Below are positions 6,596 to 36,739 of a stretch of 64,000 bases of DNA, piece after piece. Numbering within the stretch: the stretch's first letter is position 1; each line of letters starts with the position of its first letter. The stretch is from Niastella vici (GTDB lineage Bacteria; Bacteroidota; Bacteroidia; Chitinophagales; Chitinophagaceae): contig NZ_LVYD01000058.1 of assembly GCF_002077945.1 (NCBI RefSeq), positions 620,001-684,000 on the forward strand. Direction: 5' to 3'. Position numbers and translations under genes: made by a program. Under the pieces are notes generated by a model. The model was not told where the DNA came from, searched no databases, and was given only the letters and a program-made list of their open reading frames with translations.

Positions 6596-6608
6596 TGCAA
6601 AATTTGCA
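6596..6608. promoter_or_regulatory. TGCAAA-A-TTTGCA palindrome (upstream copy)
   Basis: A 13-bp perfect palindrome with a single central base. It uses the same TGCAAA half-site as the 25-bp palindrome 64 bp downstream. Probably an auxiliary operator for the RidA/SelA-like operon. Confidence 0.5.
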
Positions 6609-6671
6609 TGTTTATGCGGCCGGAAATGGATTTTCTCCCCAAATAAGCTAGATTTAGCCTCTTTATTTATC

Positions 6672-6696
6672 TTAATTGCAAATAATTTGCAATTAA
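6672..6696. promoter_or_regulatory. 25-bp perfect palindrome, candidate operator of the exported RidA operon
   Basis: Twelve bases (6672-6683) and their exact reverse complement (6685-6696) flank one central A; the core is TTGCAAATAATTTGCAA. The first 20 bases are identical to 36646-36665 upstream of the DeoR-linked SusC gene. A further half-site, TTTTGCAG, follows at 6697-6704. It lies 90 bp before the RidA ATG, where an operator would overlap or flank the promoter. Confidence 0.65.
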
Positions 6697-6785
6697 TTTT
6701 GCAGATTTCGAGAATGGGCTTAAATTAGTGAAGTCGATTTGAATGGGTCTTTCGCCATCACTAACACTTAAAAAGAAAATTTCGC

Positions 6786-7253
6786 ATGATAACCCAACGA
6801 AGAAATGCGCTTAAAAAATTGTTCGCTTCTGTTGCCGGAACAATGGGCTTAGGATTATTTGCAAAGGCTGAAACCGCTACCGCCGCACCCAACGAAAAAG
6901 AAGTATTCAATGTAGTATATGACCAGGATATTCCCCTGTTCTCCAGCGTTACCAAATTCAATGGAATGGTATTTATAGCAGGAAAAGGCGCTCATTTTGC
7001 GGGCGACGTAAAGTCCCATACCGATCACGTACTCAAAGAGCTGGAAAAAGAACTGCTGGCTGCCGGCTCTTCCATGGAAAAAGTACTGAAGGTGAATGTA
7101 TACCTCGACGATATCAAAGATTGGAGCGCCATGAATGAAGTATTTAAAGGCCGCTTTGGTAAAAATCCACCGGTACGTACAACCGTAGCTGTGGCCAAAG
7201 GCGGTGTGCCGGGCGATTCCCTGGTTGAAATGGATTGTATCGCCTACGTATAG
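6786..7253 (+). CDS. RidA/YjgF-family protein with a Tat signal peptide
   Basis: 155 residues. Residues 1-35 are a twin-arginine signal (TQRRNALKKLF, a hydrophobic stretch, then AETATAA), so the protein should be exported folded. The mature part is a Rid domain: R131 in PPVRTTVAV and E148 in LVEMDCIAYV match the conserved substrate-binding Arg and the Glu of RidA. RidA enzymes hydrolyse reactive enamine/imine intermediates released by PLP-dependent eliminases. It is the first gene of an operon whose second gene is just such a PLP enzyme, also Tat-exported, which gives RidA an obvious partner. Export of a RidA is unusual; the well-studied ones are cytosolic. Confidence 0.88.
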   Translation: MITQRRNALKKLFASVAGTMGLGLFAKAETATAAPNEKEVFNVVYDQDIPLFSSVTKFNGMVFIAGKGAHFAGDVKSHTDHVLKELEKELLAAGSSMEKVLKVNVYLDDIKDWSAMNEVFKGRFGKNPPVRTTVAVAKGGVPGDSLVEMDCIAYV

Positions 7254-7437
7254 TGTGTACTTTTTTCCGGTTAAGGTTCGATTATTTTACCGCAGCGTCG
7301 CAGGTCTTATTCTCTTATCACTGTGTCTCTGCGGTTCTCAACATGCTCATTACAAATGGGCAACCCGTTTTTAATCAGTACCTCCTTATATAATTGTGAT
7401 CCAACCAAACGGGTTCGCCACCTAAAAAACTAACTGT

Positions 7438-8655
7438 ATGCAACGGAGAGAACTGCTGAAATTTTTTTCGCTGGTCCCCATGGCCGGAAGCGCTGCCCTT
7501 ATTCCCTGGGCGGCTGCAAATGCCGCACCGCCACCTTCTGTAAAACGCGACTACTTTAAAGAACTGGGTGTTCGCACCTTTATCAATGCCGCAGGTACCT
7601 ACACCATGATGACGGGTTCCCTGATGCACGATTATGTGCTGGATGCTATTCAATATGGCGCTACCGAGTTTTGTATGCTCGATGAATTGCAGGATAAAGT
7701 AGGCGAGAAGATAGCCGCACTCGTTCATTCCGAAGCTGCTGTAGTTACTTCCGGCGCCTTCTCGGGTATGACGCTGGGACTGGCCGGTATTTTAACCGGG
7801 GTTGACCAACGTAAAGTAGAACAGCTGCCACACCTCGATGGCACTGGCATGAAGTCGGAAGTGATCATTCAAAAAGCGCACGACATAGTATACAACCATG
7901 CGTTGAAAAATACGGGTTGCAAGCTCATTTATGTTGAAACGGCCGCTGAAGTGGAACAAGCCATAAACGACAAAACCGCCTTGTTACACTTTTTAAATAT
8001 CGAGGCCGATAAAGGCAAAATACAGCACGAAGAATGGGTAGCCCTGGGCCGCAAGTATAATATTCCTACCTCTATTGATATTGCCGCCGATGTTCCACCC
8101 GTATCGAACCTGTGGAAGTTCAATGATATGGGATTCAGTTTCGTCGTGATCTCAGGCGGCAAAGCCATACGCGGTCCGCAAAGCGCGGGATTGCTCATGG
8201 GTAAAAAGGAGATCATCACCGCTGCCCGCCTGCATATGCCTCCCCGCGGTTTTAATATTGGCCGGGGATTTAAAGTAAATAAAGAAGAGATCCTGGGCAT
8301 GTACGTAGCCCTTGAAAAATATATTCAACAGGACCATGACAAAGAATGGAAAGCGTGGGAAGCTACCACTGCGCAAATAGACAATGCAGCCAAAACCGTG
8401 AACGGGGTAACTACCAGTATCACCGTACCGGCGCTGGGTAATGTAACCCCAACCTTACAAATTACCTGGGATGCGTCGAAAGTAAAATTAACCGGTAAGG
8501 AACTGCAGGAAAAATTACGCAGTGGTATTCCATCTATCGAGATCGGCGGTGTAAAGGATAACAGCATTACCGTTACCGTATGGATGCTGAAACCCGGACA
8601 GTCAACAATTGTAGCCGCTCGTATTAAGGAAGAATTGGCAAAAGCGACCGCTTAA
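7438..8655 (+). CDS. SelA/DgaE-like PLP-dependent lyase with a Tat signal peptide
   Basis: 405 residues. The N-terminus MQRRELLKFF followed by a hydrophobic stretch to about 30 is a Tat signal. Export by Tat suits an enzyme that must bind PLP in the cytoplasm first. The body is a type I PLP fold close to the selenocysteine synthase (SelA) and D-glucosaminate-6-phosphate ammonia-lyase (DgaE) group: GVRTFINAAGTYTMM near the start, SEAAVVTSGAFSGMTLGLAG, SIDIAADVPPVSNLW, and K242 in VISGGKAIRGPQSAG as the Schiff-base lysine. It is not a true SelA, since no selenium genes are near. I infer alpha,beta-elimination of ammonia from an amino acid or amino sugar acid, yielding an enamine for RidA. A 46-bp hairpin follows the gene. 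Confidence 0.8.
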   Translation: MQRRELLKFFSLVPMAGSAALIPWAAANAAPPPSVKRDYFKELGVRTFINAAGTYTMMTGSLMHDYVLDAIQYGATEFCMLDELQDKVGEKIAALVHSEAAVVTSGAFSGMTLGLAGILTGVDQRKVEQLPHLDGTGMKSEVIIQKAHDIVYNHALKNTGCKLIYVETAAEVEQAINDKTALLHFLNIEADKGKIQHEEWVALGRKYNIPTSIDIAADVPPVSNLWKFNDMGFSFVVISGGKAIRGPQSAGLLMGKKEIITAARLHMPPRGFNIGRGFKVNKEEILGMYVALEKYIQQDHDKEWKAWEATTAQIDNAAKTVNGVTTSITVPALGNVTPTLQITWDASKVKLTGKELQEKLRSGIPSIEIGGVKDNSITVTVWMLKPGQSTIVAARIKEELAKATA

Positions 8656-8687
8656 AAAATAACAGGAAAAGGCGATGAACCCGTGAG

Positions 8688-8733
8688 CCCCGGCAATCAC
8701 TGCCTGCTTTTCCCTGGCAGGCAGTGACCGGGG
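8688..8733. other. large GC-rich hairpin between SelA-like and amidohydrolase genes
   Basis: CCCCGG (8688-8693) pairs with CCGGGG (8728-8733). Inside it CACTGCCTGC (8698-8707) pairs perfectly with GCAGGCAGTG (8717-8726). There is no T tract after it, so it looks like an mRNA-stabilising or processing structure, or a partial terminator, within the operon. Confidence 0.55.
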
Positions 8734-8744
8734 ATGGTTAATGT

Positions 8745-8775
8745 GCTATTTTGCTAATGTGATAATTTGATAATG
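8745..8775. repeat. intergenic short repeat of the GTGATAATTTGATAATG type
   Basis: AATGTGATAATTTGATAATG occurs here; related copies lie at 11047-11074 and, inverted, at 11115-11139. It is followed by AT-rich heptamer-like text (8794-8826, CTTACTTCCTGCTTCTTACC) that is the reverse complement of the GAAGTA repeat at 47314. These blocks are intergenic and make the first 28 codons of the long frame here unreliable. Confidence 0.5.
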
Positions 8776-8850
8776 AAAGCGAATTCCAAAATTCTTACTT
8801 CCTGCTTCTTACCTCTTACTTCGGACCCCGGGTTCACTATTAATTCAATT

Positions 8851-10107
8851 ATGTTCAAAATATATACCTTACTCTCTCTGGTTGCAATTGCATGGCAAAC
8901 ATCAACAGCACAGTCGTACAATTTGGTAATAAAAGGCGGTCATGTTATTGATGCCAAAAACAATCTTGATGAGGTTATAGACATTGCCGTTAGTGATGGC
9001 AAAATTGCCCGGATTGCCAAAAATATTGATGAGTCAAAAGCTACACAGGTAATTAATGCCAAAGGATTGTACGTAACGCCCGGCCTTATTGATGCACATG
9101 TACATGTTTTTTATGGAACCGATGCCGACCGCACTTACAGCAACGGCCCGCTGGCGGTTATCCCCGATGTCTTTACCTTCAAAACGGGTGTTACCACGGT
9201 AGTGGATGCCGGCAGCTCGGGCTGGCGCAATTTTCCCCTCTTTAAAAAACAGGTGATCGATCTGTCACAAACAAGAGTGCTTGCTTTTTTAAATATAGTG
9301 GGTGAAGGCATGCGGGGTGGTGTATACGAACAGGATACCAAAGACATGGATGGTAAACTCACCGGCATGACGGCCAGGCGCTACCACGATTATGTTGTTG
9401 GTATTAAAGTGGCGCATTATGTTGGCGCCGAATGGACGCCCGTTGATGAAGCCGTGAAAGCCGGCACCCTGGCCAATACACCGGTGATGATCGATTTTGG
9501 CAGTAGCAGTCCACCATTATCTATTGAAGAATTGTTTATGCGTCATTTGCGACCAGGCGATATTTTTACGCATTGCTTTGGCCAGTTGCGCGACCGCGAG
9601 CCCATTGTGGATATCAATACCAAAAAAGTAAAATCCTTTATTTGGGACGCGCAGAAAAAAGGAATTGCATTCGATGTTGGTTATGGTTCCATCAGTTTTG
9701 CCTTCTCCCAGGCCATCCCCGCATTTAAAAATGGGTTCTACCCCAATTCCATCAGCACCGATATTCATGCACATAGTATGAACGCTTCCATGAAAGACAT
9801 GCTGAATGTAATGTCGAAGCTCATGAGCATTGGCATGAGCCTGCAGGGTGTTGTACAGGCTGCCACCTGGAACCCCGCCCGCGAGATCAAACATGAAGAG
9901 TTAGGTAATTTGTCGGAAGGCGCAATTGCCGACATCGCCATACTGAATGTGCGCACAGGAAAATTCGGGTTTTTCGATTATACTGGCTATAAAGTAGAAG
10001 GCACCCAAAAGCTGGAATGTGAAATGACCATTAAAGATGGAAAGATCGTTTACGACCTCAATGGCCTGGCAACACCCCTGCCTGCAAACAAAATGGACGA
10101 TCATTAA
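8851..10107 (+). CDS. exported amidohydrolase / deacetylase-type metallohydrolase
   Basis: 418 residues from ATG 8851, which begins a clear Sec signal peptide (MFKIYTLLSLVAIAWQTSTAQ). Longer frames from 8767 or 8773 only translate an intergenic repeat. Amidohydrolase-superfamily features: the N-terminal composite strand YNLVIKGGHVIDAKN, HVH at 83-85, a probable carboxylated lysine K186 (GIKVAHY), H241 (FTHCFG), D304 (STDIHAHS) and the C-terminal GAIADIAIL strand. Where related amidohydrolases have a metal-2 His after the lysine (VMVHIG), this protein reads VMIDFG, with Asp. The family, next to DgaE-like enzymes in other phyla, is thought to remove acyl groups from amino compounds. I infer de-acylation of the substrate used by the preceding PLP enzyme, in the periplasm. 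Confidence 0.82.
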   Translation: MFKIYTLLSLVAIAWQTSTAQSYNLVIKGGHVIDAKNNLDEVIDIAVSDGKIARIAKNIDESKATQVINAKGLYVTPGLIDAHVHVFYGTDADRTYSNGPLAVIPDVFTFKTGVTTVVDAGSSGWRNFPLFKKQVIDLSQTRVLAFLNIVGEGMRGGVYEQDTKDMDGKLTGMTARRYHDYVVGIKVAHYVGAEWTPVDEAVKAGTLANTPVMIDFGSSSPPLSIEELFMRHLRPGDIFTHCFGQLRDREPIVDINTKKVKSFIWDAQKKGIAFDVGYGSISFAFSQAIPAFKNGFYPNSISTDIHAHSMNASMKDMLNVMSKLMSIGMSLQGVVQAATWNPAREIKHEELGNLSEGAIADIAILNVRTGKFGFFDYTGYKVEGTQKLECEMTIKDGKIVYDLNGLATPLPANKMDDH

Positions 10108-10119
10108 ACTCACCAGATC

Positions 10120-11043
10120 ATGAAACGGATCATTATAATACTTGTAGCTTTTTTATATACCATTACCGGAGCCCTGCAGGCGCAAACCATTGCGCGCGAT
10201 GAACTGGTATTCCTTACCTCGGAATGGAAGGGAGAACGTTTCCCGGATGGACGGCCGAAGATCCCGGATGAGCTTATTCGCCGCGCCCGCAATATTGCCA
10301 TGGAAGATGCCTGGACGATCCTCAGCAATGAAGGGTATACCTGTCAGTATGAAGGCAACTGGAAAACGGTGAATAATGATACCCCGGTGGTGGGCCGGGC
10401 ATTGACCGCCTGTTTTATGCCCTCGCGCCCCGACGTGGAAAAGAATATAAAAGAACGCGGTAAAAAAGAAGGACGCGTGGGTAATACCAACGCCTGGCCC
10501 ATTGATATGTTAACGAAAGGCGATGTGTATGTGGCTGACGGCTTTGGGAAAATATCGGGGGGAACGCTTATAGGCAGTAACCTCGGCAACGCTATTTTCA
10601 GTAAAACGGGTACGGGTGTCGTTTTTGACGCCGCGGCCCGAGACCTGGAAGGTCTCGCAGAAATAAAGGGCTTTAACGCGTATGTACGTGACTGGCACCC
10701 ATCGTACCTGAAAGAGGAAGTGCTGATGGGGTTGAACGCGCCCATCCGCATTGGGCATGCGATGGTAATGCCCGGTGACCTGGTGATCGCCAAAAAAGGC
10801 GGCGTACTATTCATTCCTGCCCATATGGCCGAAAATGTGATCGTGACTGCGGAGTTTATCATATTAAAGGATAAATTTGGGATAAGCATGCTGAAGGCCG
10901 GCCGGTATACACCCGGACAGATCGACAACCAATGGACCGATAAAATAAAACAGGATTTTCTCGATTGGTTGCAGAAAAACCCGAACGAGATACCCATGAC
11001 CCGCGCGCAGCTTGATGAGTATATGAAAAAGAGAACGTGGTAG
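10120..11043 (+). CDS. RraA-family (HMG aldolase-like) protein with a signal peptide
   Basis: 307 residues. A Sec signal peptide (MKRIIIILVAFLYTITGALQAQ) precedes an RraA/4-hydroxy-4-methyl-2-oxoglutarate aldolase fold: the loop GGTLIGSNLGNAIFSKTGTG and the strand VVFDAAARDLEGL, whose R-D pair and preceding Asp match the Mg/pyruvate site of class II RraA-type aldolases. The family cleaves or decarboxylates 2-oxo acids, although RraA itself is an RNase E inhibitor without catalysis. The protein is longer than a bare RraA (about 160-230 residues), with an extra N-terminal helical part and a C-terminal extension. Starting 12 bp after the amidohydrolase stop, it is clearly co-transcribed. I infer aldol cleavage of a 2-oxo acid made by the preceding enzymes. 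Confidence 0.82.
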   Translation: MKRIIIILVAFLYTITGALQAQTIARDELVFLTSEWKGERFPDGRPKIPDELIRRARNIAMEDAWTILSNEGYTCQYEGNWKTVNNDTPVVGRALTACFMPSRPDVEKNIKERGKKEGRVGNTNAWPIDMLTKGDVYVADGFGKISGGTLIGSNLGNAIFSKTGTGVVFDAAARDLEGLAEIKGFNAYVRDWHPSYLKEEVLMGLNAPIRIGHAMVMPGDLVIAKKGGVLFIPAHMAENVIVTAEFIILKDKFGISMLKAGRYTPGQIDNQWTDKIKQDFLDWLQKNPNEIPMTRAQLDEYMKKRTW

Positions 11044-11046
11044 GGC

Positions 11047-11139
11047 AATGTGATAATTGGATAATTCGATAATGCTTTAAATTCGTGAAGGCCGAAAAAT
11101 AACTGGCTCTCCGCATAATGCATTATCACATTATCAAAT
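11047..11139. repeat. inverted pair of GTGATAAT intergenic repeats
   Basis: ATGTGATAAT (11048-11057) and its exact reverse complement ATTATCACAT (11122-11131) flank about 64 bp. Both belong to the same short repeat family seen at 8745-8775. In RNA they would form a long-loop hairpin between the RraA-like and BASS genes. Confidence 0.5.
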
Positions 11140-11194: not shown

Positions 11195-12325
11195 ATGACT
11201 ATCTCAAAGATTGCCCTGCCTGTTGCTGCTGTTTGTTTGCTGGGATTTATCGTCTTCAATATTGTTGGCAGTGCTGCCTTTGCGGGGCCCTGGCTGATCG
11301 CTTTTTTTATTAGTCTGTCCATTGGCTTCAGAGCCTATGCCGCATTGAAAGGTTTTGCTTTCACCATGCTCATCTTTGCCGCAGTGACAACTGCTTTATA
11401 TTATCCGCACTACTTTGTAAGCTGGGGCGGCGTAAAGCTCGCCACCTTTTTTACGCCGCTGTTACAGATCATCATGTTTGGGATGGGAACCGAAATGGGG
11501 ATTAAAGATTTTGCCGGGGTTATAAAAATGCCCAAAGCAGTGTTGATCGGGTTGTTTGGTCATTTCACTTTTATGCCGCTGGCGGGTTATACGCTGGCGC
11601 GTGTATTTAATTTCCCACCAGAGATCGCGGCAGGCGTTGTACTCATTGGCAGTATGCCTTGCGGAATGGCCTCGAATGTGATGTCGTATCTGGCCAATGC
11701 CAATTTAGCCCTGTCGGTTACATTAACAGCAGTGGCTACCATGTTATCGCCTTTTTTAACGCCATTGTGGATGAAAATACTGGGCGGACAATTCATTGAA
11801 GTGAATGCAAAGGCCATGATGTGGGAAATCATCAAGATTGTGGTGCTGCCGATATGTGCCGGCTTGCTGTTCAACCGGTTCTTTAAAGGCAAACTTACCT
11901 GGCTCGATAAAATAATGCCGCTGATCTCGATGTTCGGCATTGCATTTATCATTGTGATCATTGTGGCGGCCGGGCGCGATAACCTCATTGTAATAGGGCC
12001 CGCATTGATAGTATGCGCACTAATTCATAATACAACCGGTTATTTGTTTGGTTACTATATTGGCAAATTGTTCAGGTTGCCTGAGCGGGATGCACGTACC
12101 ATCGCTATTGAAGTTGGAATGCAAAATGGTGGACTGGCATCGGGGCTGGCGCGCGAAATGGGAAAAGCAGCTACGCTTGGTTTGGCGCCTGCTATTTTTG
12201 GTCCGCTCATGAATATCACCGGATCGGTTCTTGCATCTTACTGGCATAGGAAACCGGTGAAGGAGTCAACGATTTCAGAAAAACAAAAAATGGAAGAGGC
12301 AGGCGAATCAGTAGAAGTGGGATGA
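11195..12325 (+). CDS. BASS-family (bile acid:sodium symporter type) transporter
   Basis: 376 residues, about ten hydrophobic helices. The two crossing motifs of the BASS fold are present: GSMPCGMASNVMSYLANAN in the first half and EVGMQNGGLASGLA in the second. Despite the family name, bacterial and plastid members carry 2-oxo acids such as pyruvate or ketopantoate with Na+. At the end of a cassette of exported enzymes, it most likely imports their keto-acid product. A charged tail of about 25 residues follows the last helix. The gap before it (151 bp) holds inverted repeats, so its level may differ from the upstream genes. Confidence 0.88.
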   Translation: MTISKIALPVAAVCLLGFIVFNIVGSAAFAGPWLIAFFISLSIGFRAYAALKGFAFTMLIFAAVTTALYYPHYFVSWGGVKLATFFTPLLQIIMFGMGTEMGIKDFAGVIKMPKAVLIGLFGHFTFMPLAGYTLARVFNFPPEIAAGVVLIGSMPCGMASNVMSYLANANLALSVTLTAVATMLSPFLTPLWMKILGGQFIEVNAKAMMWEIIKIVVLPICAGLLFNRFFKGKLTWLDKIMPLISMFGIAFIIVIIVAAGRDNLIVIGPALIVCALIHNTTGYLFGYYIGKLFRLPERDARTIAIEVGMQNGGLASGLAREMGKAATLGLAPAIFGPLMNITGSVLASYWHRKPVKESTISEKQKMEEAGESVEVG

Positions 12326-27388: not shown

Positions 27389-28612
27389 ATGGAAAAAAAC
27401 TTATTGTATAAAAGGAGGATCGTTAAACATCTCTATTTTGGCAATATGTTGTCCTGTGCCGACCTGAGCGATAAGATCCACAAGAGCATTCCGCTTACCA
27501 CCAAAATGTTGGGTAAGCTTATGGAGGAAGGAATGGTTACGGAAACAGGTTATGCCGCTTCAACCGGTGGCCGCCGCCCGGTGATGTACTCATTGAAACA
27601 GGATGTAATGTATGTGGTGTCGGTGGCAATGGACCAGTTGGTTACCCAGATAGCCATCCTCGATATGCAAAACAGGAACGTGGCCGAAATTGAACTGTTT
27701 GAACTTCCGCTTACCAAAAATCCGAATGCGCCAACTGCACTAGCAGAAAAAATTAATGAAATAATCAGCCGGTCAGGAATTCCAAAGAACAAGATTGCCG
27801 GAATAGGAATTGGGATGCCTGGTTTTGTAAATGCTGTAAAAGGTATCAATTATACCTTTTTAGAACCAGAGGGTGGCAACATCAGCCAGTATATTTCAGC
27901 CAAAGTAAAATTACCTGTATTCATTGATAACGACTCGCGTTTGATCGCATTGGCCGAATTGAAATTCGGCGCAGCGCGTGATAAGAAGAATGCGTTGGTG
28001 ATCAACGTAGGTTGGGGCGTGGGGCTGGGAATGATCCTGGAAGGAGAGCTGTTCAGGGGGCATGATGGCTTTGCAGGCGAGTTCAGCCATATACCGCTTT
28101 TTCTGAACAACAAATTATGCAGTTGCGGTAAAAGCGGTTGTCTGGAAACAGAGACCTCGCTATTAGTAGTGATCGAAAAAGCAGGCAAGGGTTTGAAAAG
28201 CGGAAAGCTATCTATGATAAAGGAGAAAGAGCTGTCGGCAAATCATCCTGACACAGCCTTTCAGAATATAGTAGCCGCCGCCGGTAAGGGCGACAAGTTT
28301 GCGGTAGAGATCTTATCCGAAGCTGGCTACAACATTGGAAGAGGGGTTGCCATCCTGATCCATTTACTAAACCCGGAGGCAGTGATATTGAGCGGACGCG
28401 GATCATCGGCCGGTAAAATATGGCAGGCACCCATACAGCAGGCGCTGAACGAACATTGTATCCCCCGGTTATCGGTGAATACGGAGATCGAGATCTCGGC
28501 ACTGGGATTCAAAGCCGAGCTCACAGGCGCTGCTGCCCTCGTTATGGAGAACTATGAACGCGAGGATTCAAAGAACCTTATTTATGAAAATAAACCGGAT
28601 GTGTTCATTTAA
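27389..28612 (+). CDS. ROK-family transcriptional regulator (NagC/Mlc type)
   Basis: 407 residues. The N-terminal winged helix (about 8-75) is followed by a ROK sugar-kinase fold: IGIGMPGFVNAVKG, FIDNDSRLIALAELKFGAAR, GFAGEFSHIPL and a zinc-binding CSCGKSGCLE (C244, C246, C251). The DNA-binding part makes it a repressor or activator rather than a plain glucokinase; the ROK part binds a sugar or sugar phosphate. It is directly upstream of, and in line with, the first SusC/SusD pair, whose promoter region contains a 7-bp inverted repeat, so local control of that pair is likely. Confidence 0.9.
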   Translation: MEKNLLYKRRIVKHLYFGNMLSCADLSDKIHKSIPLTTKMLGKLMEEGMVTETGYAASTGGRRPVMYSLKQDVMYVVSVAMDQLVTQIAILDMQNRNVAEIELFELPLTKNPNAPTALAEKINEIISRSGIPKNKIAGIGIGMPGFVNAVKGINYTFLEPEGGNISQYISAKVKLPVFIDNDSRLIALAELKFGAARDKKNALVINVGWGVGLGMILEGELFRGHDGFAGEFSHIPLFLNNKLCSCGKSGCLETETSLLVVIEKAGKGLKSGKLSMIKEKELSANHPDTAFQNIVAAAGKGDKFAVEILSEAGYNIGRGVAILIHLLNPEAVILSGRGSSAGKIWQAPIQQALNEHCIPRLSVNTEIEISALGFKAELTGAAALVMENYEREDSKNLIYENKPDVFI

Positions 28613-28673
28613 TCCGGTGCTCACCTTTCCTATTATTTACCCTGGATAGAAGACTGTTGGTGTAAGACCAGAA

Positions 28674-28694
28674 AGTATTGTAGGGAGCAATACT
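28674..28694. promoter_or_regulatory. inverted repeat AGTATTG / CAATACT before SusC
   Basis: Perfect 7-bp arms separated by TAGGGAG, 57 bp upstream of the SusC ATG and downstream of the ROK stop. It is a candidate ROK operator. Confidence 0.45.
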
Positions 28695-28750
28695 GCCAAT
28701 ATCTGTTATTATAAAGTATCAATTTTTTTTTGACAATCAAACAAACTGCT

Positions 28751-31700
28751 ATGACGAAAGCAACCATCCGATTACTACTGATCGTGCTGGCTGGTATCTG
28801 GAGCCTGACAGGTACTGCACAGGAAAAAAAGATGATCACAGGAGTGGTAAAGGATAGCGCTGGTAATGCATTGCCAGGTGTGTCCATCCTTGAAAAAGGA
28901 ACTACCACTGCCACTATTTCTGACATGAACGGTGCGTTCAGGATCCCGGTTTCAACTGCAAAACCGGTACTTGTATTTTCTTCTGTTGGGTTCGACAGAA
29001 AAGAGGTTACTGTAGGTAGCCAAACCAACCTCAGTGTTTCCCTGGCCGGTGAAACAACCAGCCTCGAAGGTGTTGTGGTAACTGCGTTGGGCATTAAAAA
29101 AGAACAACGCAAGTTAGGTTATGCCACTACGCAGGTCTTGCAAAAAGACATCATTCAATCGTCGCCTACCAACTTTGCATCCGCATTGTATGGTAAAGCT
29201 CCGGGCGTTACGATCACTACCAATCCTGGCGGTGCTACCAGTGCGGTAGGTATCCAGATCAGGGGTATCAACTCTATTAGTGGTCAGCGGCAACCGTTGT
29301 TAGTGGTAGATGGTGTTATTATCCGGAATGGCGATGCCAACGGCGAAGGATACTGGGGCGGTAACCAGCGCCTGAACGGCAATGGGTTGCTCGATATCAA
29401 TCCTGAGAATATTGAAAGCATCAACATCCTGAAAGGTGCAGCTGCTTCTGCCCTGTATGGTTCTGATGCCAACTTTGGTGTTATTGTGGTTACTACTAAA
29501 AACGGTAAAGGCCATAAAGGATTAGGCGTTGATGTTAACCTGAGCGCCAATGCCGAAAAAGTAGCAGTATTGCCCGATCTGCAGGAAGAATACGGTCCCG
29601 GTTATGACCGCGGAACCAATATGTCGGCCTTTGGTTCTGATGACCAGGGTTGGATCACACAGACTGTAAATGGTCAAACTGTTAAACGTCCCATTTTCAG
29701 AGCGTATGGACAGTTTGGTCCTAAAGTAGATGGCAGCCAGGTGTATTGGTGGGATGGACAGATGCGTCCATATGTATCACACGGTAACCCCTGGAAAAAG
29801 TTTTACCGCACCGGTCATAGCGAAATCGCCAATATCGCTGTAAATAATGCTACCGAAAAAATGAACTATCGTCTTTCGTATACCCGTAATGATTATAAGG
29901 GTATCCAAATTGGCGGTAAGCAGGAGAAGAATACATTCAATTTCAATTCTTCTTATAAGGTTACGCCTAAATTAACGGTAGACCTGGTGGGTCAGTACAT
30001 AAACGAAAAAGTACACAACAGACCCCGTCAGATCTATTACGTTACCAACAACTTTGGCGGTTTCTTCAGTCCTATTGATGATATGGACATCTATTTCAAC
30101 AAGTATAGAACTACCAAAGGATATAAATGGGTTGACTGGAACTCGAATTTAGATGTTAGTGAAAGACTGGCCTATAATATTCGCGGAAAGGACTTCCTTG
30201 ACTTTTTATGGAACCAGTTGGCAAATAATTTCGATGAAACCACCAACCGCCTGCTTGCATCAGCAACCGTCAATTGGAATATTGCAAAAGGGCTGAATTT
30301 CCGTGGCCGTTATGGAACTGACTATACAGGCTATTTTGCTGAAACGCAGAACCGTTCAACCCAACCGCTTTCATTTGGGGCATCTGGTGCTTATGGTACC
30401 AATACCAACCGGTACCTGATCAATTATGGCGACCTGTTGTTGTCGTATGAGCACCAGGTAATACCTGATCTGAAGGCAACTGTATCGGTAGGTTACCAGG
30501 CCCGCAAGGAAGATTACCGCTATAACAGTGCTTTCACCAAAGATGGGTTAACCCAGGAGAACTGGTTTAACTTAAACGCTTCTAAAAACAACGCCACCGG
30601 TACAGCCAGAACCCAGGCATTGGTAAAGGATGGGGCGTTCGGTATCCTTAATCTGGAATACAAGGACTTCCTGTTTATAGAAGGAACATTGAGAAGAGAG
30701 GTGAGCTCATCACTGGCTCCCGGCAACAATACCTTTTATTATCCTGGTGTAAGCGCTGCCTTTGAATTGAGCAGGGCGCTCCAGATGCCGGAATTTGTTA
30801 ACTACAGCAAACTGCGTGCTTCATATGGTGTGGTAGGTAATCCGCCCGATGCTTATGTAGGCAACGTATTATATAATTCAAACCCTCCCGGTAATATTGA
30901 AGGTATTCCCATTCTGTATCCGCAAACTTCAAACTTTGGCAATAAAGAGCTGAGAAATGAAAAGAAACAAGAGTTTGAGGTTGGTTTGGAAAACAAATTC
31001 CTGAATAACCGTTTAGGATTTGACCTTACTTATTATAATGACAAAATTGTTGACCAGATTCTGCCCCTTTCTACACCGGCCACCATTGGTGCTACCAGTG
31101 TTTACGTGAACGTAGGTGATCTGCGCAATTATGGAGTTGAATTGGGTTTGTATGGCACACCTGTTAAAACAAAGGATTACGCATGGGATACCCGGTTGAA
31201 TATTGCTTTTAACCGTAACAAGCTGGTTGCTTTGAGAGCCGGTCTGGAACAATTAGTTGCAAACAATCTGGATAATGGCTCCCTGGTAGTAGTTTCCAAG
31301 CCTGGCCGCCCGGTTGGTGACCTTATGGGTTACAAAAGAAGGGTAGATGACAAGGGGAATTATATTATCAATTCCGATGGTTACTACGACATCAACTTCG
31401 ATCAGCAGGCCCGCCTGGGTAATCTGCAACCCAAAGCAACCGGTGGTTTCATCAACAGCTTTACCTACAAAAACTTCAATCTGAATGTAGTGGTTGATTT
31501 CCGTTTTGGCGGTCAGGTTGTATCACAGGCTTTGTTGTATGGAACCGGCGCTGGTTTATACAAGAACTCTTTGTTTGGCCGCGATGCTGATCATGGTGGT
31601 TTATCTTATTACACTGCCGGTGGAAAGAATATTCAGGTTGCTAAAGGAACTGCTACAGGCCCCGGTGGTCAAAAAGTATACAATGATGGTATGGTCCTGA

Positions 31701-32080
31701 AGGGCGTAACCGCTGATGGGAAAGAAAATACCACCGTAATTGATGCGCCTAACTATTATCTGAACACATTTGGCTGGGGCTCATGGCCTGGTTCTGGCTC
31801 CAACATCAGCTATAACGATGCGGTATTCAATAACGACTACATCAAAATGCGTGAAGTAACCCTGTCGTATATGCTGCCTAAAAAAGTAGCCGGTTTCATT
31901 AAAGCGCAAAACCTGACTTTCAGTGTGTATGGTAGAAACCTGTTTTATTTCAAAAAGACGCTGCCTTACCTCGATCCTGAAGAGGGTGTTGGTACCAACT
32001 ATGCTGCTCAGGGTACTTCGCTCGGACAAGGTAATGCCGCTACCCGTTCAATCGGTGGCAGCCTCAGGGTTTCATTCTAA
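28751..32080 (+). CDS. SusC/RagA-family TonB-dependent outer-membrane transporter (locus 1)
   Basis: 1109 residues from ATG 28751 (the frame runs on to a TTG at 28730). Signal peptide to about 24. A carboxypeptidase-regulatory-like domain follows (MITGVVKDSAGNALPGVSILEKGTTTATISD), then the SusC hallmark VVVTALGIKKEQRKLGYATTQV, a plug domain (QIRGINSISGQRQPLLVVDGV, INILKGAAASALYG) and a 22-strand barrel ending RVSF. It imports oligosaccharides or glycopeptides with its SusD partner. It lacks the N-terminal STN domain found in its paralogue at 53406, so it is not an anti-sigma signalling transporter. Confidence 0.95.
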   Translation: MTKATIRLLLIVLAGIWSLTGTAQEKKMITGVVKDSAGNALPGVSILEKGTTTATISDMNGAFRIPVSTAKPVLVFSSVGFDRKEVTVGSQTNLSVSLAGETTSLEGVVVTALGIKKEQRKLGYATTQVLQKDIIQSSPTNFASALYGKAPGVTITTNPGGATSAVGIQIRGINSISGQRQPLLVVDGVIIRNGDANGEGYWGGNQRLNGNGLLDINPENIESINILKGAAASALYGSDANFGVIVVTTKNGKGHKGLGVDVNLSANAEKVAVLPDLQEEYGPGYDRGTNMSAFGSDDQGWITQTVNGQTVKRPIFRAYGQFGPKVDGSQVYWWDGQMRPYVSHGNPWKKFYRTGHSEIANIAVNNATEKMNYRLSYTRNDYKGIQIGGKQEKNTFNFNSSYKVTPKLTVDLVGQYINEKVHNRPRQIYYVTNNFGGFFSPIDDMDIYFNKYRTTKGYKWVDWNSNLDVSERLAYNIRGKDFLDFLWNQLANNFDETTNRLLASATVNWNIAKGLNFRGRYGTDYTGYFAETQNRSTQPLSFGASGAYGTNTNRYLINYGDLLLSYEHQVIPDLKATVSVGYQARKEDYRYNSAFTKDGLTQENWFNLNASKNNATGTARTQALVKDGAFGILNLEYKDFLFIEGTLRREVSSSLAPGNNTFYYPGVSAAFELSRALQMPEFVNYSKLRASYGVVGNPPDAYVGNVLYNSNPPGNIEGIPILYPQTSNFGNKELRNEKKQEFEVGLENKFLNNRLGFDLTYYNDKIVDQILPLSTPATIGATSVYVNVGDLRNYGVELGLYGTPVKTKDYAWDTRLNIAFNRNKLVALRAGLEQLVANNLDNGSLVVVSKPGRPVGDLMGYKRRVDDKGNYIINSDGYYDINFDQQARLGNLQPKATGGFINSFTYKNFNLNVVVDFRFGGQVVSQALLYGTGAGLYKNSLFGRDADHGGLSYYTAGGKNIQVAKGTATGPGGQKVYNDGMVLKGVTADGKENTTVIDAPNYYLNTFGWGSWPGSGSNISYNDAVFNNDYIKMREVTLSYMLPKKVAGFIKAQNLTFSVYGRNLFYFKKTLPYLDPEEGVGTNYAAQGTSLGQGNAATRSIGGSLRVSF

Positions 32081-32105
32081 ACACATCAGCTAAACAATGA
32101 CAATT

Positions 32106-33659
32106 ATGAAAAAACTTATTATAACAATTCCGCTTTTAATAATAGCAGCCGGCATGCTGGTGACGGGTTGCAAAAAATCTGATTTTCAAAACAATTATAC
32201 TGATCCCAACGCATCAGTTGCTGCAACTGTCCCCAGCTTGTATTCAGGATTGCTTTATAATGAAAGGGTATTGCCACGGTATTGGGGACTGTACACCTTA
32301 CAGATCCCAACCATGGGCACATACAGCCAAACGGCTGGGTACACCCAGGGTAATAAAATATATGAACAACCGGTAAACTACACAGGAGACCGTTGGAATT
32401 ATTATTATACCACTACCCTTGCCCGGTTCCGTGAAATTGAGAAGGCTTATAACAAGCTCACTACCGATGCCGATAAAACCGGTTACCTGTTGTTCCTGGA
32501 AACAGCCCGCATTTTTTTCTATGATCAAACGGCGCAAATGGTAGATCTGTGGGGCGATATTCCCTTCTCAACTGCCGGTTCACTGAATACATCAGGAACT
32601 ATTGTACTGCCTTCATACGACAAAGGCGCTGATATTTATACGAATATCCTGACCGATCTGAAAAGGATCTCTGACTATTTGTCTACCGTATCGGCCGATC
32701 CATTTTATACCACGCAGTTGACTTCTTATGATTATGTGAATAAGGGTTCTCTTACTGCATGGCGTAAGTATGCAAATTCACTGATGTTGCGTTTGGCAAT
32801 GCGCATCTCCTATAAGGATGAAACAACTGCCAAATCACTGATACAAACGATTCTCGGTAACTCAACCAAGTATCCGACTATCGATGCCGCCAGCGAAAGC
32901 ATAAAAATTCAACCGTCAAGCACCAGCAGTTCGCTTGTTTCAATGAATGATATCAGAAATGGTTTTGGCGTAGATCCGTTCGCGCCCGGTAAAATGGTTG
33001 ATTCAATCATGTGGCCTGCCAGTGATCCACGTTTACCCATTTACTTTACCGCTAATAAGAAAGGCGAGTATCATGGCGTTCCCAATACCTGGAATTCAAG
33101 CCGGGTGAGCGATTCTACAACCGCTAACTATTTCTCCCGCTGGGATTCAACCACTTTCACTGAAAACAACCTGTTCCCCGGTATCATTTTTACCGCTGCG
33201 GAAGTAAGTTTCCTGAAAGCTGAAGCGTATGAAAGATGGGGTGGTGGAACTGCTAAAACTGCTTATGAAACCGGTGTTAAGCAATCCATCCAGTTTTATT
33301 TAAGCATTAATAATAACAGCGATTATGGCGGTACCAAGGAAACAATGCCTTCCGATGCAACCATTGCTACCTATCTGTTAAATCCTATTGTGGCTTATGG
33401 CACCAATAACCTGGAAAAGATCGCCACGCAAAAATGGATCGATTTCGGGGTAATACAGGCAAACCAGGCATGGGCCGAATGGCGCCGTACCAAATTACCA
33501 AAATTGACATTCCCAACTGATAATTCATCCGTATTATCACCCACGCCGCCTAACAGGTTCTTATATCCTTCTTCTGAAGCGACGTATAATGCAACCAACT
33601 ATGCAGCGGTTAAATCAAGTGATGTGATCACCACCAAGGTGTTCTGGGATGTAAAATAA
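32106..33659 (+). CDS. SusD/RagB-like surface glycan-binding lipoprotein (SusD-like_2 type, locus 1)
   Basis: 517 residues from ATG 32106; ATG 32097 is also possible. The lipobox is LVTGCKKS. SusD-like_2 family features: YTDPNASVAATVPSLYSGLLYN, VDLWGDIPFSTAGSLN, YKPAYDKGA-like text (SYDKGADIYTNILTDLKRIS), FLKAEAYERWGGGTAKTAYETGVKQSI and AEWRRTKLP. It caps the adjacent SusC barrel and captures substrate. No glycoside hydrolase follows, so the pair is an orphan transporter with a terminator directly after it. Confidence 0.94.
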   Translation: MKKLIITIPLLIIAAGMLVTGCKKSDFQNNYTDPNASVAATVPSLYSGLLYNERVLPRYWGLYTLQIPTMGTYSQTAGYTQGNKIYEQPVNYTGDRWNYYYTTTLARFREIEKAYNKLTTDADKTGYLLFLETARIFFYDQTAQMVDLWGDIPFSTAGSLNTSGTIVLPSYDKGADIYTNILTDLKRISDYLSTVSADPFYTTQLTSYDYVNKGSLTAWRKYANSLMLRLAMRISYKDETTAKSLIQTILGNSTKYPTIDAASESIKIQPSSTSSSLVSMNDIRNGFGVDPFAPGKMVDSIMWPASDPRLPIYFTANKKGEYHGVPNTWNSSRVSDSTTANYFSRWDSTTFTENNLFPGIIFTAAEVSFLKAEAYERWGGGTAKTAYETGVKQSIQFYLSINNNSDYGGTKETMPSDATIATYLLNPIVAYGTNNLEKIATQKWIDFGVIQANQAWAEWRRTKLPKLTFPTDNSSVLSPTPPNRFLYPSSEATYNATNYAAVKSSDVITTKVFWDVK

Positions 33660-33698
33660 GTTACATTAAGTTTTACATTTTAAGTGTTGAGAGTTACG

Positions 33699-33726
33699 GC
33701 CCCGATAATCATATCGGGGCTTTTTT
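33699..33726 (+). terminator. intrinsic terminator after the first SusC/SusD pair
   Basis: GCCCCGATA (33699-33707) and TATCGGGGC (33712-33720) flank a four-base ATCA loop, then six T. Confidence 0.9.
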
Positions 33727-33730
33727 ATTT

Positions 33731-33747
33731 CTGAGCGGAGTCGAAGA
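33731..33747. repeat. CTGAGCGGAGTCGAAGA element
   Basis: Half-decayed copy of the dispersed CCTGAGCG-AGTCGAAGG repeat, directly after the terminator. Confidence 0.5.
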
Positions 33748-33809
33748 ATCTCTGCCCAATTCCTTAAATTGATAGTTATTTGCCGTATTTGCTCATCAAT
33801 ACCATTAAC

Positions 33810-35177
33810 ATGGAAACTATTTTAATCGTGCTGCTGGCCATTTTGTTGTTGGTAAGCATCATTACCCTCGTATTTGCCTGGAAAGCCTTCACCGCCAGGA
33901 ACAATACCGACTACATGGCCTTAAAATACAAAATGGATAATGTGCTGGCCGAAATTGCACGCATTGAAACAGCCGTGAAACAGGAAATGGTGACCAACCG
34001 GCAGGAAACGGGCGATAACTCCCAACGCATCCGTGCCGAACTGGCTGCTTCGTTAAAAAGTTTTGGTGAGCTTATTACCCAAACTATGACCAATGCGAAT
34101 ACGGTGCAAAAAGATAATTTCTTTGCCTTATTGAATAAACAAAGTGAGCAGAACAACGCTACCTCTTTGCGGCTCGATCAAATGCGCGAAACGCTGGAAA
34201 AGAAAATGGCCGACATGCAAACCGGTAACGAACGCAAGCTCGATGAAATGCGGGCTACGGTAGACGAAAAATTACAGAAAACACTGGAGGCCCGCCTCGG
34301 CGAATCGTTTAAGCTGGTGAGCGAGCGGTTAGAGGCGGTGCATAAAGGATTGGGCGATATGCAGCAACTGGCAACGGGTGTGGGCGATCTCAAACGGGTG
34401 CTCAGCAACGTGAAAACAAGAGGCGTGCTCGGTGAATACCAGTTGGAAAGTATTCTTGAACAAATACTCACAATTGATCAATATGGCAAGAACGTAAAAA
34501 CAAAAGAAGGTTCCAATGCGTTGGTCGAATTTGCTATTAAACTTCCAGGCCGCGGCGATAAGGACAAACCAACCTGGCTGCCCATTGATTCAAAATTCCC
34601 CAAAGAAGATTTTGAAGCGCTGCTCGATGCATACGACCAGGCCCTGCCCGACCTGGTAGAGGAATGCCGGAAAAGTTTTGTGAAAGGAATCCGGAAATGT
34701 GCCCTCGATATCAGTGGCAAATATGTTGACCCGCCCAATACAACTGATTTTGCCATCCTGTTCCTGCCATTTGAAAGCCTGTATGCAGAAGTGTTGCGTA
34801 CACCCGGTTTGTTCGAAAGTATTCAGCGTGAGTATAAGATCATTATCACGGGGCCAACTACGTTATCGGCCTTGCTCAACAGTCTACAAATGGGTTTCAG
34901 AACGCTGGCCATTGAAAAAAGATCGGGTGAGGTATGGCAATTACTGGGCGCAGTAAAAACAGATTTCAGCAACTTTGGTGTTATTCTGGATAAAACGAAA
35001 AAGAAGTTACAGGAAGCCAGCAATGTTATTGAGCAGGCAGGTACGCGCACAAGAGTGATCGAAAGAAGATTGCGCGACGTTCAGGAATTACCAAAAGAAG
35101 ATGCCGTTGCCCTGATCGGGAAATCGAACACGTTTAACGTGGATGAAGAGGATGATAATAATACGATTAAGGAGTAA
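33810..35177 (+). CDS. rmuC: RmuC-family DNA recombination protein
   Basis: 455 residues from ATG 33810; the frame extends to a TTG at 33780. An N-terminal membrane helix (ILIVLLAILLLVSIITLVFAW) is followed by a long coiled coil (about 40-200), then the RmuC nuclease-like core: VKTRGVLGEYQLESILEQIL, LPIDSKFPKEDFEALLDAYD, DFAILFLPFESLYAEVLR and LQMGFRTLAIEKRSGEVWQLL. RmuC limits inversions and rearrangements at short repeats and has a PD-(D/E)xK-type fold. It stands alone between two carbohydrate loci with its own terminator on the left. Confidence 0.95.
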   Translation: METILIVLLAILLLVSIITLVFAWKAFTARNNTDYMALKYKMDNVLAEIARIETAVKQEMVTNRQETGDNSQRIRAELAASLKSFGELITQTMTNANTVQKDNFFALLNKQSEQNNATSLRLDQMRETLEKKMADMQTGNERKLDEMRATVDEKLQKTLEARLGESFKLVSERLEAVHKGLGDMQQLATGVGDLKRVLSNVKTRGVLGEYQLESILEQILTIDQYGKNVKTKEGSNALVEFAIKLPGRGDKDKPTWLPIDSKFPKEDFEALLDAYDQALPDLVEECRKSFVKGIRKCALDISGKYVDPPNTTDFAILFLPFESLYAEVLRTPGLFESIQREYKIIITGPTTLSALLNSLQMGFRTLAIEKRSGEVWQLLGAVKTDFSNFGVILDKTKKKLQEASNVIEQAGTRTRVIERRLRDVQELPKEDAVALIGKSNTFNVDEEDDNNTIKE

Positions 35178-35214
35178 TAAGGATATTACTGCGGTTCCTG
35201 AATAAGGGAGAATT

Positions 35215-35249
35215 CGTAAAGCCGGATGTTATGCGGGTCCGGCCTTACG
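35215..35249. terminator. hairpin after rmuC
   Basis: CGTAA/TTACG and GCCGGA/TCCGGC form a stem (35215-35226 with 35238-35249) with one internal A-C mismatch. There is no T tract, so terminator function is uncertain. The rest of the 35178-35519 gap shows only AT-rich sequence. Confidence 0.35.
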
Positions 35250-35519
35250 GTTTGGGAAAAGTTAATCCTAACAACTGTTGTATGCTGATAAAAAAGTGTA
35301 ATGTGTACACTAAATTATTAACAGTGTGCAATATACGCTAAAAGAGTATTCAGGTATCAATTACCGGTAGTAACCAGGGGGAAATAGTTATCCACTTTTT
35401 GGCTGAGGGAAACCAATAATTATTTTGGATAACCTGTATGGTAAAGTCTGGTCTGTTACCTGGTGAAGGTAGCTCACTGTTTGATGTTGGCAAATAACAG
35501 ACCAATGTGTGGCGGGTAA

Positions 35520-36302
35520 TTAAAGAAGCGTAAGATTTTTAGCTTTATAAGCCTGTAATTCATTGCTCTCAGGCGAAAGTTCTGTGATTAAATAATGGAT
35601 CTCATTCACATCGGCAATTTTCATTTGCATCACCGAATTGAGTTTTTCGGAAATGGTGAGCACGGCCACTTTATCTGCAGCGTTGATCATGGCTTTTTTA
35701 ACCTGAATGGTTTCCCAGTCAGAATCGGTTAAGCCGCTATTTGAATCAATGGCATTGATACCCAGGATGCACAGGTCGGCCTTGATATTGCTGAGGTACT
35801 GAAAAACTTCACCGCTAACAGTCATCTGGCTGTAGGTTGAAATTTGTCCGCCGATCATAATGGTTTTGATCATTGGTTTATCGAGCAATTCAACGGCGGT
35901 AAGCACGTTTACGGTAATAAAGGTGGCGCGCAGGGTGGCAGGGATCTTTTTGATGAACTCCCTGATGGTAGTACCACCGCCGATGAGCACGATCATATCG
36001 TCTTTCAGTAATTGCACGGTTTTATCGGCAATGATCCCCTTATTTTGCTGTGAATACGTCTGTGATTCATGGCCAATATGATAGGCCGCCGACATAACCC
36101 CGCCTTTAATGCGGATCACCTGTCCTTCCTCGGCCAGTTCGTTCACATCACGCCTGATGGTATCTTCCGACACATCGATCAGTTTAACCAGGTCGGTAAA
36201 CATTAAACGGGTATGGATGTTCACCTGTTTGATGATCAGCTTCTTCCTTTCCTTTTTTTGCAAGGCTACCGGGGCTGATGAATTTGAATTATTGTTTGCC
36301 AT
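35520..36302 (-). CDS. DeoR-family transcriptional regulator
   Basis: 260 residues from ATG 36302; the frame extends 18 codons upstream (36356), but those lack DeoR similarity. The N-terminal helix-turn-helix is typical (RKKLIIKQVNIHTRLMFTDLVKLIDVSEDTIRRDVNELAEEGQVIRIKGGV). The effector-binding DeoRC domain follows (VLIGGGTTIREFIKKIP, KTIMIGGQISTYSQMTVSGE, ADLCILGINAIDSNSGLTDSDWE). Such proteins sense phosphorylated sugars. It is transcribed away from the second SusC/SusD locus. The 437-bp divergent region, and the region before the exported RidA operon 30 kb away, share a TTGCAAAT palindrome that is the best candidate for its operator. Confidence 0.9.
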   Translation of the reverse strand: MANNNSNSSAPVALQKKERKKLIIKQVNIHTRLMFTDLVKLIDVSEDTIRRDVNELAEEGQVIRIKGGVMSAAYHIGHESQTYSQQNKGIIADKTVQLLKDDMIVLIGGGTTIREFIKKIPATLRATFITVNVLTAVELLDKPMIKTIMIGGQISTYSQMTVSGEVFQYLSNIKADLCILGINAIDSNSGLTDSDWETIQVKKAMINAADKVAVLTISEKLNSVMQMKIADVNEIHYLITELSPESNELQAYKAKNLTLL

Positions 36303-36454
36303 ATATCTGTTGAAACGTTGTTTGGATGAGGTCCTTCTCCAATTGACAAAATTCAATATTATCCTCGAAATAAAATGGCTTCTTCAAGGTTGCCGGCTAA
36401 TATTTTTCAAATAAACAGGGCAACAGGCAACACTTTGTATACCTTCTATTTCTC

Positions 36455-36467
36455 TGCAATCTTTGCA
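36455..36467. promoter_or_regulatory. degenerate TGCAA-N3-TTGCA site
   Basis: TGCAATCTTTGCA is an imperfect copy of the TGCAAA palindrome, lying between the DeoR start and the stronger site at 36480. Confidence 0.35.
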
Positions 36468-36479
36468 ATAATACAATAA

Positions 36480-36496
36480 TTGCAAATATTTTGCAA
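36480..36496. promoter_or_regulatory. TTGCAAAT-A-TTTTGCAA palindrome (DeoR side)
   Basis: A 17-bp near-perfect palindrome (one mismatch) of the same core as 6672-6696 and 36651-36665. It lies 178 bp upstream of the DeoR start, positioned for autoregulation. Confidence 0.55.
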
Positions 36497-36645
36497 GTCC
36501 ATTTCTGCCGACCGGCAAATCTGTCTGAATTTGATGGGCATTCTAAATTAAACTGAATATCAAACAGTTATAAAGTATTGCCCGCTTCCGGCCTAAACCG
36601 CCATTAGGAATTACCTATATGTAACAATTTGCAGCAATTATTATT

Positions 36646-36666
36646 TTAATTGCAAATAATTTGCAG
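36646..36666. promoter_or_regulatory. candidate operator of the DeoR-linked SusC locus
   Basis: TGCAAATAATTTGCA (36651-36665) is a perfect 15-bp palindrome. Twenty consecutive bases (36646-36665) are identical to 6672-6691. Extra half-sites ATTTGCAG (36628-36635) and ATTTGCAA (36699-36706) flank it. It lies 75 bp before the SusC ATG. Confidence 0.65.
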
Positions 36667-36739
36667 ATATTGCTTTTTTGTTATTAAATTGAGACAGAAT
36701 TTGCAACCGTAACTAACTTTTCTACTCAACACAACGCTT

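Follow-up and report, generated by a model that had tools for sequence, protein, structure and literature searches.

The DNA analysed here is a stretch of 64,000 nucleotides from Niastella vici (contig NZ_LVYD01000058.1, positions 620,001 to 684,000 of the forward strand), hereafter the window, in which two operons are preceded by the same palindrome. Locus 1 begins with a RidA-family gene (ridA1) and a gene for a DgaE-like lyase (dgaE), locus 2 with a susC/susD pair, and a gene for a DeoR-family regulator (deoR) stands opposite susC, divergent from locus 2 as an earlier note on this DNA had said (Table 1). Judging from the placement and conservation of the palindrome, the DeoR protein is probably an autoregulating repressor that controls both operons through this shared operator.

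The 20 bases at 6672-6691 are indeed identical to those at 36646-36665, and the first site, taken as 6672-6696, is the perfect 25-bp palindrome (12+1+12) that the note had described. The distance of 75-90 bp upstream of the first genes given there needs correction, since the 20-mer ends 94 bp from the start codon at locus 1 and 74 bp from that at locus 2. We call the site at locus 1 O1, and the two sites in the deoR-susC interval O2a (deoR-proximal) and O2b (susC-proximal). Of the secondary copies that had been suggested beside both, the one at 36480-36496 is a full site (O2a), whereas in the one at 6596-6608 the TGCAA and TTGCA arms are separated by 3 bp instead of 5. The proposed half-sites fared likewise: an ATTTGC near 36628 is invariant in an alignment of ten genomes, whereas the one near 36699 is elsewhere mostly CGCA.

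Occurrence and conservation of the proposed operator

The pattern TTGCAAATNATTTGCAA is matched exactly at 6676 and with one mismatch at 36480 and 36650, and these are the only three sites with at most one mismatch in the whole genome (10.06 Mb), ruling out a global regulator or a common repeat. Many unrelated genomic copies, which the earlier note had regarded as fatal to its proposal, were not seen when two mismatches were allowed: there were 13 sites against 6 with a reversed-pattern control, so that the weaker matches are largely noise. Six of the ten two-mismatch matches fall within open reading frames and four are intergenic, and none was counted as a further member of the regulon. One of the four intergenic matches, TTTCAAATTCTTTGCAA (L005), lies upstream of a LacI-family gene and is perhaps that regulator's own site; among the matches listed, the same 17 bases also occur in three other genomes of the genus (G152, G148 and G071).

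A matrix built from deoR-upstream sites of other genera gives the three window sites 27.7, 27.7 and 25.2 bits and no other position in the window more than 11.5, with the limit that its 36 training sites were chosen by motif likeness and are not wholly independent. The same matrix places all ten locus-1 sites at 24.8-27.7 bits and nine control operons at 6.5 or below.

Ten genomes of the genus were compared, our own included, and locus 1 is present in nine of them; among named organisms, Niastella and Longitalea species come closest to the window. All ten have deoR, 88-94% identical in the nine others, and all ten have two sites with at most two mismatches in the interval between deoR and its divergent gene; both sites are kept even in G071, where susC has gone from the genes divergent to deoR. 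O1 has no or one mismatch to the 17-mer in all nine genomes with the operon, starting 108-171 bp 5′ of ridA1, and is present with two mismatches in G243, which belongs to another genus. The site is therefore kept upstream of both loci in relatives, within the genus as well as in G243, as would be expected from the earlier proposal. When the regions upstream of ridA1 are aligned for the nine genomes, most flanking sequence is unalignable and the O1 core (TGCAAATAATTTGCA) is the best-conserved block, with 14 of its 15 positions invariant. The arrangement of the loci varies: the two are adjacent in G147, with the end of the ridA1 operon about 60 bp from deoR, and G006 has, ahead of its ridA1 operon, a susC/susD pair that is 56%/47% identical to that of locus 2.

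A scan of one genome per species (84,980 species) yielded 49 loci with a relative of this DeoR protein, in Niastella, Longitalea, Puia, Chitinophaga, Paraflavitalea, Pseudoflavitalea, Pseudobacter, Flavitalea, Filimonas, Foetidibacter, Dyadobacter, Emticicia and unnamed bins. Within 600 bp upstream of deoR the best match has 0 mismatches in 5 loci, 1 in 24, 2 in 6, 3 in 9, 4 in 3 and 5 in 2. Sites with at most two mismatches are thus present in 35 of the 49 upstream regions, as compared with 4 of 980 dinucleotide shuffles and 3 of 1,462 control tiles from the same loci; one of the three tiles is a ridA1 site, that of a Niastella genome (L173). A count blind to the motif returned TGCAAA-N3-TTTGCA as the commonest exact 6+6 palindrome, in 40 of the 49. 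Searching 29 genomes of other genera for YTGCAAATNATTTGCAR with no more than one mismatch gave 66 sites, and the reversed control gave 8. Coordinates put 25 of these at deoR, and the remaining 41 were all fetched: six of them, in five genomes, precede ridA1 homologues, behind which an amidohydrolase gene follows directly or, in G243, after dgaE, and three precede dgaE homologues of 44-45% identity.

Presence of the site also goes together with presence of this particular regulator. None of 20 loci of deoR paralogues in the genus (42-46% identical; 20 of the 42 paralogue matches were covered) reaches three or fewer mismatches in 2.8-3.8 kb, as against two or fewer at all ten orthologue loci. 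A common palindrome for the paralogues was also looked for, and none was clear. The site lies upstream of ridA-dgaE in all ten genomes that have close orthologues of both deoR and dgaE, one of which carries the two loci on different contigs. Among dgaE loci as a whole, the site is found at 10 of 11 where the genome has a DeoR orthologue, the exception (G102) having a dgaE homologue of just 47% identity, and at 0 of 24 (23 genomes, best match four mismatches) where it has none, counts that ignore the kinship of the genomes. Here absence of DeoR means no match at 1e-72, and the DeoR and dgaE searches apparently ran over the same 294 genomes. The scan took in 35 of 48 dgaE matches; the 13 left out are second or third copies in DeoR-less genomes, some of which fall in nine longer scanned dgaE regions where the best matches have four to five mismatches. 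Two proposals of the earlier note thus find support in silico: the following of deoR orthologues across genera, together with the absence at the 20 paralogues examined, points to DeoR as the binder, and the distribution over dgaE loci with and without DeoR points to a single regulon. That the DeoR protein binds this operator appears highly probable from these comparisons. Open-licence literature in PubMed Central (PMC) gave no publication on this DeoR protein or operator among the matches listed.

Proposed repression and competing explanations

The positions of the sites relative to the predicted promoters suggest how DeoR would act. The ridA1 promoter pattern TTTG-N19/20-TAAATTAG is present in all nine genus genomes and was not found in G243, and the susC promoter pattern is present in nine of ten, G071 (susC gone) being without it. 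The TAnnTTTG promoter consensus was checked in an excerpt of a Flavobacterium paper (PMC9723704). O1 ends 1 bp 5′ of the predicted −33 TTTG of ridA1 and O2b overlaps the predicted −33 box of susC, and because of this abutment and overlap bound DeoR should block RNA polymerase at both. In the mechanism that we propose, the DeoR-family protein encoded at 35520-36302 would recognise the palindrome TGCAAAWWWTTTGCA as its operator. A multimer of this protein on O2a and O2b would control deoR itself and the susC operon, and DeoR on O1 would control the ridA1-dgaE operon. Repression, as the direction of this control, is likely. As inducer we suggest, tentatively, a phosphorylated sugar intermediate, of which the best candidate is 2-keto-3-deoxy-6-phosphogluconate; this product of the locus 2 PfkB kinase would release DeoR from the DNA.

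Additional elements of the TGCAA-N3-TTGCR type accompany the sites. Near ridA1 a similar element stands at the matching place in all nine genus genomes with varying sequence: TGCAAAATTTGCA is exact only in our own genome and in G148, the version in most others has TTGCG at its end, and that of G147 is altered further. Its centre is 82, 72, 84, 83, 84, 84, 83, 82 and 72 bp from that of O1 in the nine genomes, and O2a and O2b are 170, 168, 158, 168, 168, 169, 169, 168 and 170 bp apart, with 132 bp in G071. By hand calculation these spacings are close to whole turns of 10.5 bp, save the 132 bp in G071. The spacing of the auxiliary elements is at most suggestive of DNA looping, bearing in mind that related genomes are not independent.

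Several results weigh against this account of a shared operator. With up to three mismatches the window holds 3 matches against 1.29 expected and 15 of 100 shuffles reach as many, so this count is not significant and the weight lies with the low mismatch counts. Among the 49 deoR upstream regions, 14 have no site with at most two mismatches, including those of Dyadobacter and Emticicia, the most distant orthologues; in 13 deoR-susC regions from outside the genus, which overlap that set, at most two mismatches are seen in 4, at most three in 10 and no site in 3, and the deoR site of G243 itself has three. As for the 41 sites away from deoR in other genera, 32 were not found 5′ of homologues of locus 1 or locus 2, and at least 12 of them lie inside open reading frames. 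Moreover, 147 genomes of the family contain 72 sites with at most one mismatch (11 with the reversed control; context was read for a minority) in 45 genomes, only 4 of which have a DeoR orthologue. Since sites occur in family genomes that lack this DeoR, it is not the motif alone that is diagnostic, it is its placement before these genes. Finally, the recognition-helix region VSEDTIRRD is identical in a paralogue that has no site, and specificity must therefore lie elsewhere in the protein.

Seven of the 32 sites just mentioned are of the variant TTGCAAACAATTTGCAA, which recurs in many Chitinophagaceae genomes (loci L015, L016, L018, L027, L039, L042, L235, L239, L246, L250-L252 and L254), with two copies 11 bp apart in G116 and G123, and is perhaps the site of another regulator.

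Among the alternatives, the one that survives best is that DeoR activates the operons, or mainly regulates itself with locus 1 under other control, which we consider unlikely. In its favour, 16 of 18 Chitinophaga genomes have no exact site besides the one between deoR and susC, and the other two have no exact site at all, so autoregulation appears to be the widespread role; O1, besides, lies upstream of the predicted −33 box and not on it, about 10 bp farther in G149. However, the O1 core stands out as the best-conserved block before ridA1, several other genera have sites in front of homologues of ridA1 or dgaE, and DeoR-family proteins are mostly repressors. The contrast between Chitinophaga and the Niastella, G243, Puia and Flavitalea genomes, where sites also accompany homologues of ridA1 or dgaE, may mean that a local autoregulator has recruited an extra operon.

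Still less probable is the binding of the palindrome by another factor, such as the HxlR protein encoded beside locus 1 or the ROK protein encoded between the loci. An hxlR gene adjoins the SBF transporter gene in the eight locus-1 regions of the genus other than that of G147 (our window and seven more), a ROK gene lies beyond rmuC in six loci of the genus, and the near-exact sites in DeoR-less family genomes mean that other proteins may bind similar palindromes. Yet G147 keeps the site though no hxlR stands between its SBF gene and deoR, the site in other genera stays with deoR in stretches where no ROK gene and one weak hxlR homologue were found, and it is missing from dgaE loci where this DeoR is missing. 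A chance 20-base identity or a recent functionless copy, with which the unremarkable window count at three mismatches would agree, is refuted by conservation of the site and has a negligible probability, the copies being kept in nine genus genomes despite divergence of their flanks and also in a second genus, where the loci are on separate contigs.

DeoR-mediated repression of both operons, if correct, assigns a specific operator and a regulator to a group of Chitinophagaceae glycan loci, and it connects two operons that annotation would leave apart.

Gene content and possible metabolic role

Table 1. Features of the two loci, with window coordinates.
Feature	Position	Strand	Basis or remark
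Auxiliary 13-bp element TGCAAAATTTGCA	6596-6608	.	TGCAA-N3-TTGCR type; centre 82 bp upstream of O1 centre
Operator O1, locus 1	6672-6696	.	Perfect palindrome of 25 bp; core TGCAAATAATTTGCA (6677-6691) conserved
Predicted ridA1 promoter	6698-6728	+	TTTG 6698-6701, 19-bp spacer, TAAATTAG 6721-6728; resembles Bacteroidota −33/−7
ridA1, RidA-family, twin-arginine-type signal peptide (QRRNALKK)	6786-7253	+	Pfam PF01042 3.8e-20
dgaE-like pyridoxal-phosphate (PLP) lyase (SelA/DgaE superfamily), twin-arginine-type signal peptide (MQRRELLKF)	7438-8655	+	TIGR01437 4e-51, under cut-off
Amidohydrolase/deacetylase-family metallohydrolase, likely signal peptide	8842-10107	+	NF006689 448 bits (cut-off 371) for reading frame from 8767
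RraA-like protein, likely signal peptide	10120-11043	+	PF03737 2.5e-15
SBF/BASS-family transporter, PanS-like	11195-12325	+	PF01758 1.2e-41; TIGR00841 4.9e-69, under cut-off
deoR, DeoR-family regulator, proposed binder	35520-36302	-	PF08220 4.1e-13 and PF00455 6.6e-34
Second 13-bp TGCAA-N3-TTGCA element TGCAATCTTTGCA, deoR side	36455-36467	.	9/10 genus genomes, missing in G071
Operator O2a, deoR-proximal	36480-36496	.	TTGCAAATATTTTGCAA
Operator O2b, susC-proximal	36650-36666	.	TTGCAAATAATTTGCAG; its stretch equals O1 over 20 bp
Predicted susC promoter	36660-36691	+	TTTG 36660-36663 inside O2b, 21-bp spacer, TAAATTG 36685-36691
susC-type TonB-dependent transporter	36740-39889	+	Plug domain PF07715 6e-18
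susD-type lipoprotein	39903-41444	+	PF12771 2.8e-76
Alpha-L-fucosidase-family (GH29) protein	41539-43191	+	PF01120 2.2e-62
GH20 beta-N-acetylhexosaminidase	43195-45489	+	PF00728 9.1e-120
GntP-family gluconate-type permease	45517-46836	+	PF02447 1.7e-141; TIGR00791 482 bits (cut-off 292.75)
ridA2, RidA/YjgF-type, signal peptide not seen by eye	46854-47315	+	PF14588 1e-15
PfkB kinase, probably 2-keto-3-deoxygluconate (KDG) kinase	47458-48495	+	Best solved relative 2afb KDG kinase 1.7e-61
Peptidase M19 (membrane-dipeptidase family)	48576-49646	+	PF01244 8.8e-53

The DeoR protein scores above the gathering cut-offs for both the N-terminal helix-turn-helix domain PF08220 (49.3, cut-off 21) and the C-terminal DeoRC sensor domain PF00455 (117.6, cut-off 31.8). 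Its start may be at 36302 instead of 36356, because relatives from outside the genus mostly align from residue 18 or later, although several alignments start before it. ridA1 likewise passes the gathering score of Ribonuc_L-PSP (72.5 bits, cut-off 27.3) and stays below the subfamily model TIGR00004 (66.6 of 106.25). In the lyase, lysine 242 is aligned with lysine 213 of 7lc0, presumably the PLP lysine. For the amidohydrolase, whose best solved relatives are 8je0 and 2ogj, the start at 8842 is inferred, the reading frame list beginning at 8767. A twin-arginine motif ahead of a hydrophobic stretch was read by eye in ridA1 of 8 of 8 and dgaE of 9 of 9 relatives, besides those of the window, and the products of both genes, with these twin-arginine-type signals, are presumably exported by the twin-arginine translocation (Tat) pathway. 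Since the lyase carries an export signal, its substrate is presumably unphosphorylated.

From these families, the chance that the regulated genes would serve the catabolism of 2-amino-sugar acids is about even. The SusCD pair with GH20 and GH29 would take up a glycan bearing N-acetylhexosamine, the exported DgaE-like lyase would remove ammonia from a 2-amino-2-deoxy sugar acid such as D-glucosaminate, and the exported RidA would assist with the enamine or imine, the compounds that lyases of this kind form and on which RidA-type proteins act. The acid would be imported by the SBF transporter or GntP, and the KDG kinase would feed central metabolism. A fuller version, in which a Tat-exported, folded PLP lyase and RidA convert glucosaminate-like compounds to 2-keto-3-deoxy acids in the periplasm, and are switched together with the distant SusCD locus by one DeoR repressor through in-phase, possibly looping operators, is conceivable and would be our less probable estimate. 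The export signals of lyase and RidA would point to amino-sugar-acid chemistry outside the cytoplasm, an unusual setting for it, and the shared operator would tell when it is used.

This metabolic assignment has its own weak points. It comes from family resemblance, no scored family model proving it, and the lyase is far below the cut-off of the DgaE family model (134 of 600 bits) as well as that of the subfamily TIGR01437 (174 of 385). The PfkB kinase reaches 1.3e-97 with a KDPG aldolase/sugar kinase fusion model, under its cut-off, and 181 of 440 with the NCBIfam KDG kinase equivalog NF041332. Behind one site-bearing dgaE homologue lies a gene for a glucose/quinate-type pyrroloquinoline quinone (PQQ) dehydrogenase that has a cytochrome c domain, a neighbour in keeping with an amino sugar being oxidised to the acid, but a search of our own genome for a PQQ dehydrogenase, run without a positive control, gave no match. 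At L225:3691-12173 a susC-susD-dgaE-PQQ dehydrogenase/cytochrome c row has an operator-like site in its susD-dgaE interval. The place of the kinase between ridA2 and the M19 gene is taken in some relatives by a D-serine-dehydratase-like PLP enzyme; the own genome has this D-TA-type enzyme elsewhere, beside a second gntP, and no operator site was found in the stretch fetched there.

Compared with known systems, the DeoR/GlpR-family repressors (GlpR, AgaR, DeoR) share with this regulator the PF08220 and PF00455 domains, divergence from sugar genes and palindromes near promoters, whereas the operator sequence and gene set here are distinct and the NCBIfam equivalogs are far under cut-off (GlpR_Halo, the best, 134 of 300; AgaR 94 of 260). 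Sequence comparison found a single solved relative, 7l6l, a Deoxyribose operon repressor (E 1.1e-5). The lyase belongs to the same superfamily as the known DgaE-type lyase, with its lysine aligned, and differs in its export signal. The Salmonella counterpart is under a sigma54 system; here a DeoR protein is present instead, and the annotated genes of the window include no phosphotransferase system (PTS) genes. A work on the mannose-family PTS route is cited in the reference list of PMC3844500. Bacteroidota polysaccharide utilisation loci have SusCD and glycoside hydrolases in common with locus 2, in contrast to which we find a divergent DeoR-family gene, and an operator shared with a second, unlinked operon of amino-acid-type chemistry. 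Natrarchaeobius clusters, which are archaeal, resemble ours in a DgaE-like lyase and RutC, which we take to be a RidA-family protein, and have an IclR regulator instead. In the portion of the description consulted, DGA, a glucose dehydrogenase and RutC are placed in predicted breakdown of chitin and N-acetylglucosamine with an IclR regulator, and export is not mentioned (PMC12343721). The regulon proposed here is new, and the enzyme pair with export signals is unusual.

Other genes of the window and of related loci were noted in passing. In Chitinophaga sp. E66 (L215) the deoR, susC and gh20 matches are each in several pieces, which suggests frameshifts or sequencing errors, and the operator-like site is intact. 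Beside locus 1, 3134-6352 (- strand) encodes a 1,072-residue protein with a WD40 propeller, a Ras/Roc GTPase and TIR/SEFIR domains, which looks like a signalling or defence protein. At 16759-18000 (+) an HD-domain protein with a C-terminal Pycsar-effector-like membrane domain (PycTM) adjoins polyphosphate kinase. A ROK regulator gene, a SusCD pair and rmuC lie between the loci at 27389-35177 (+), and several relatives in the genus have rmuC, susC/susD-like genes and a ROK gene beyond deoR in the same order. Downstream, 52378-62114 (+) holds a FecR-type gene, a SusCD pair and two GH29 fucosidase genes, which make up a second fucose-type glycan locus.

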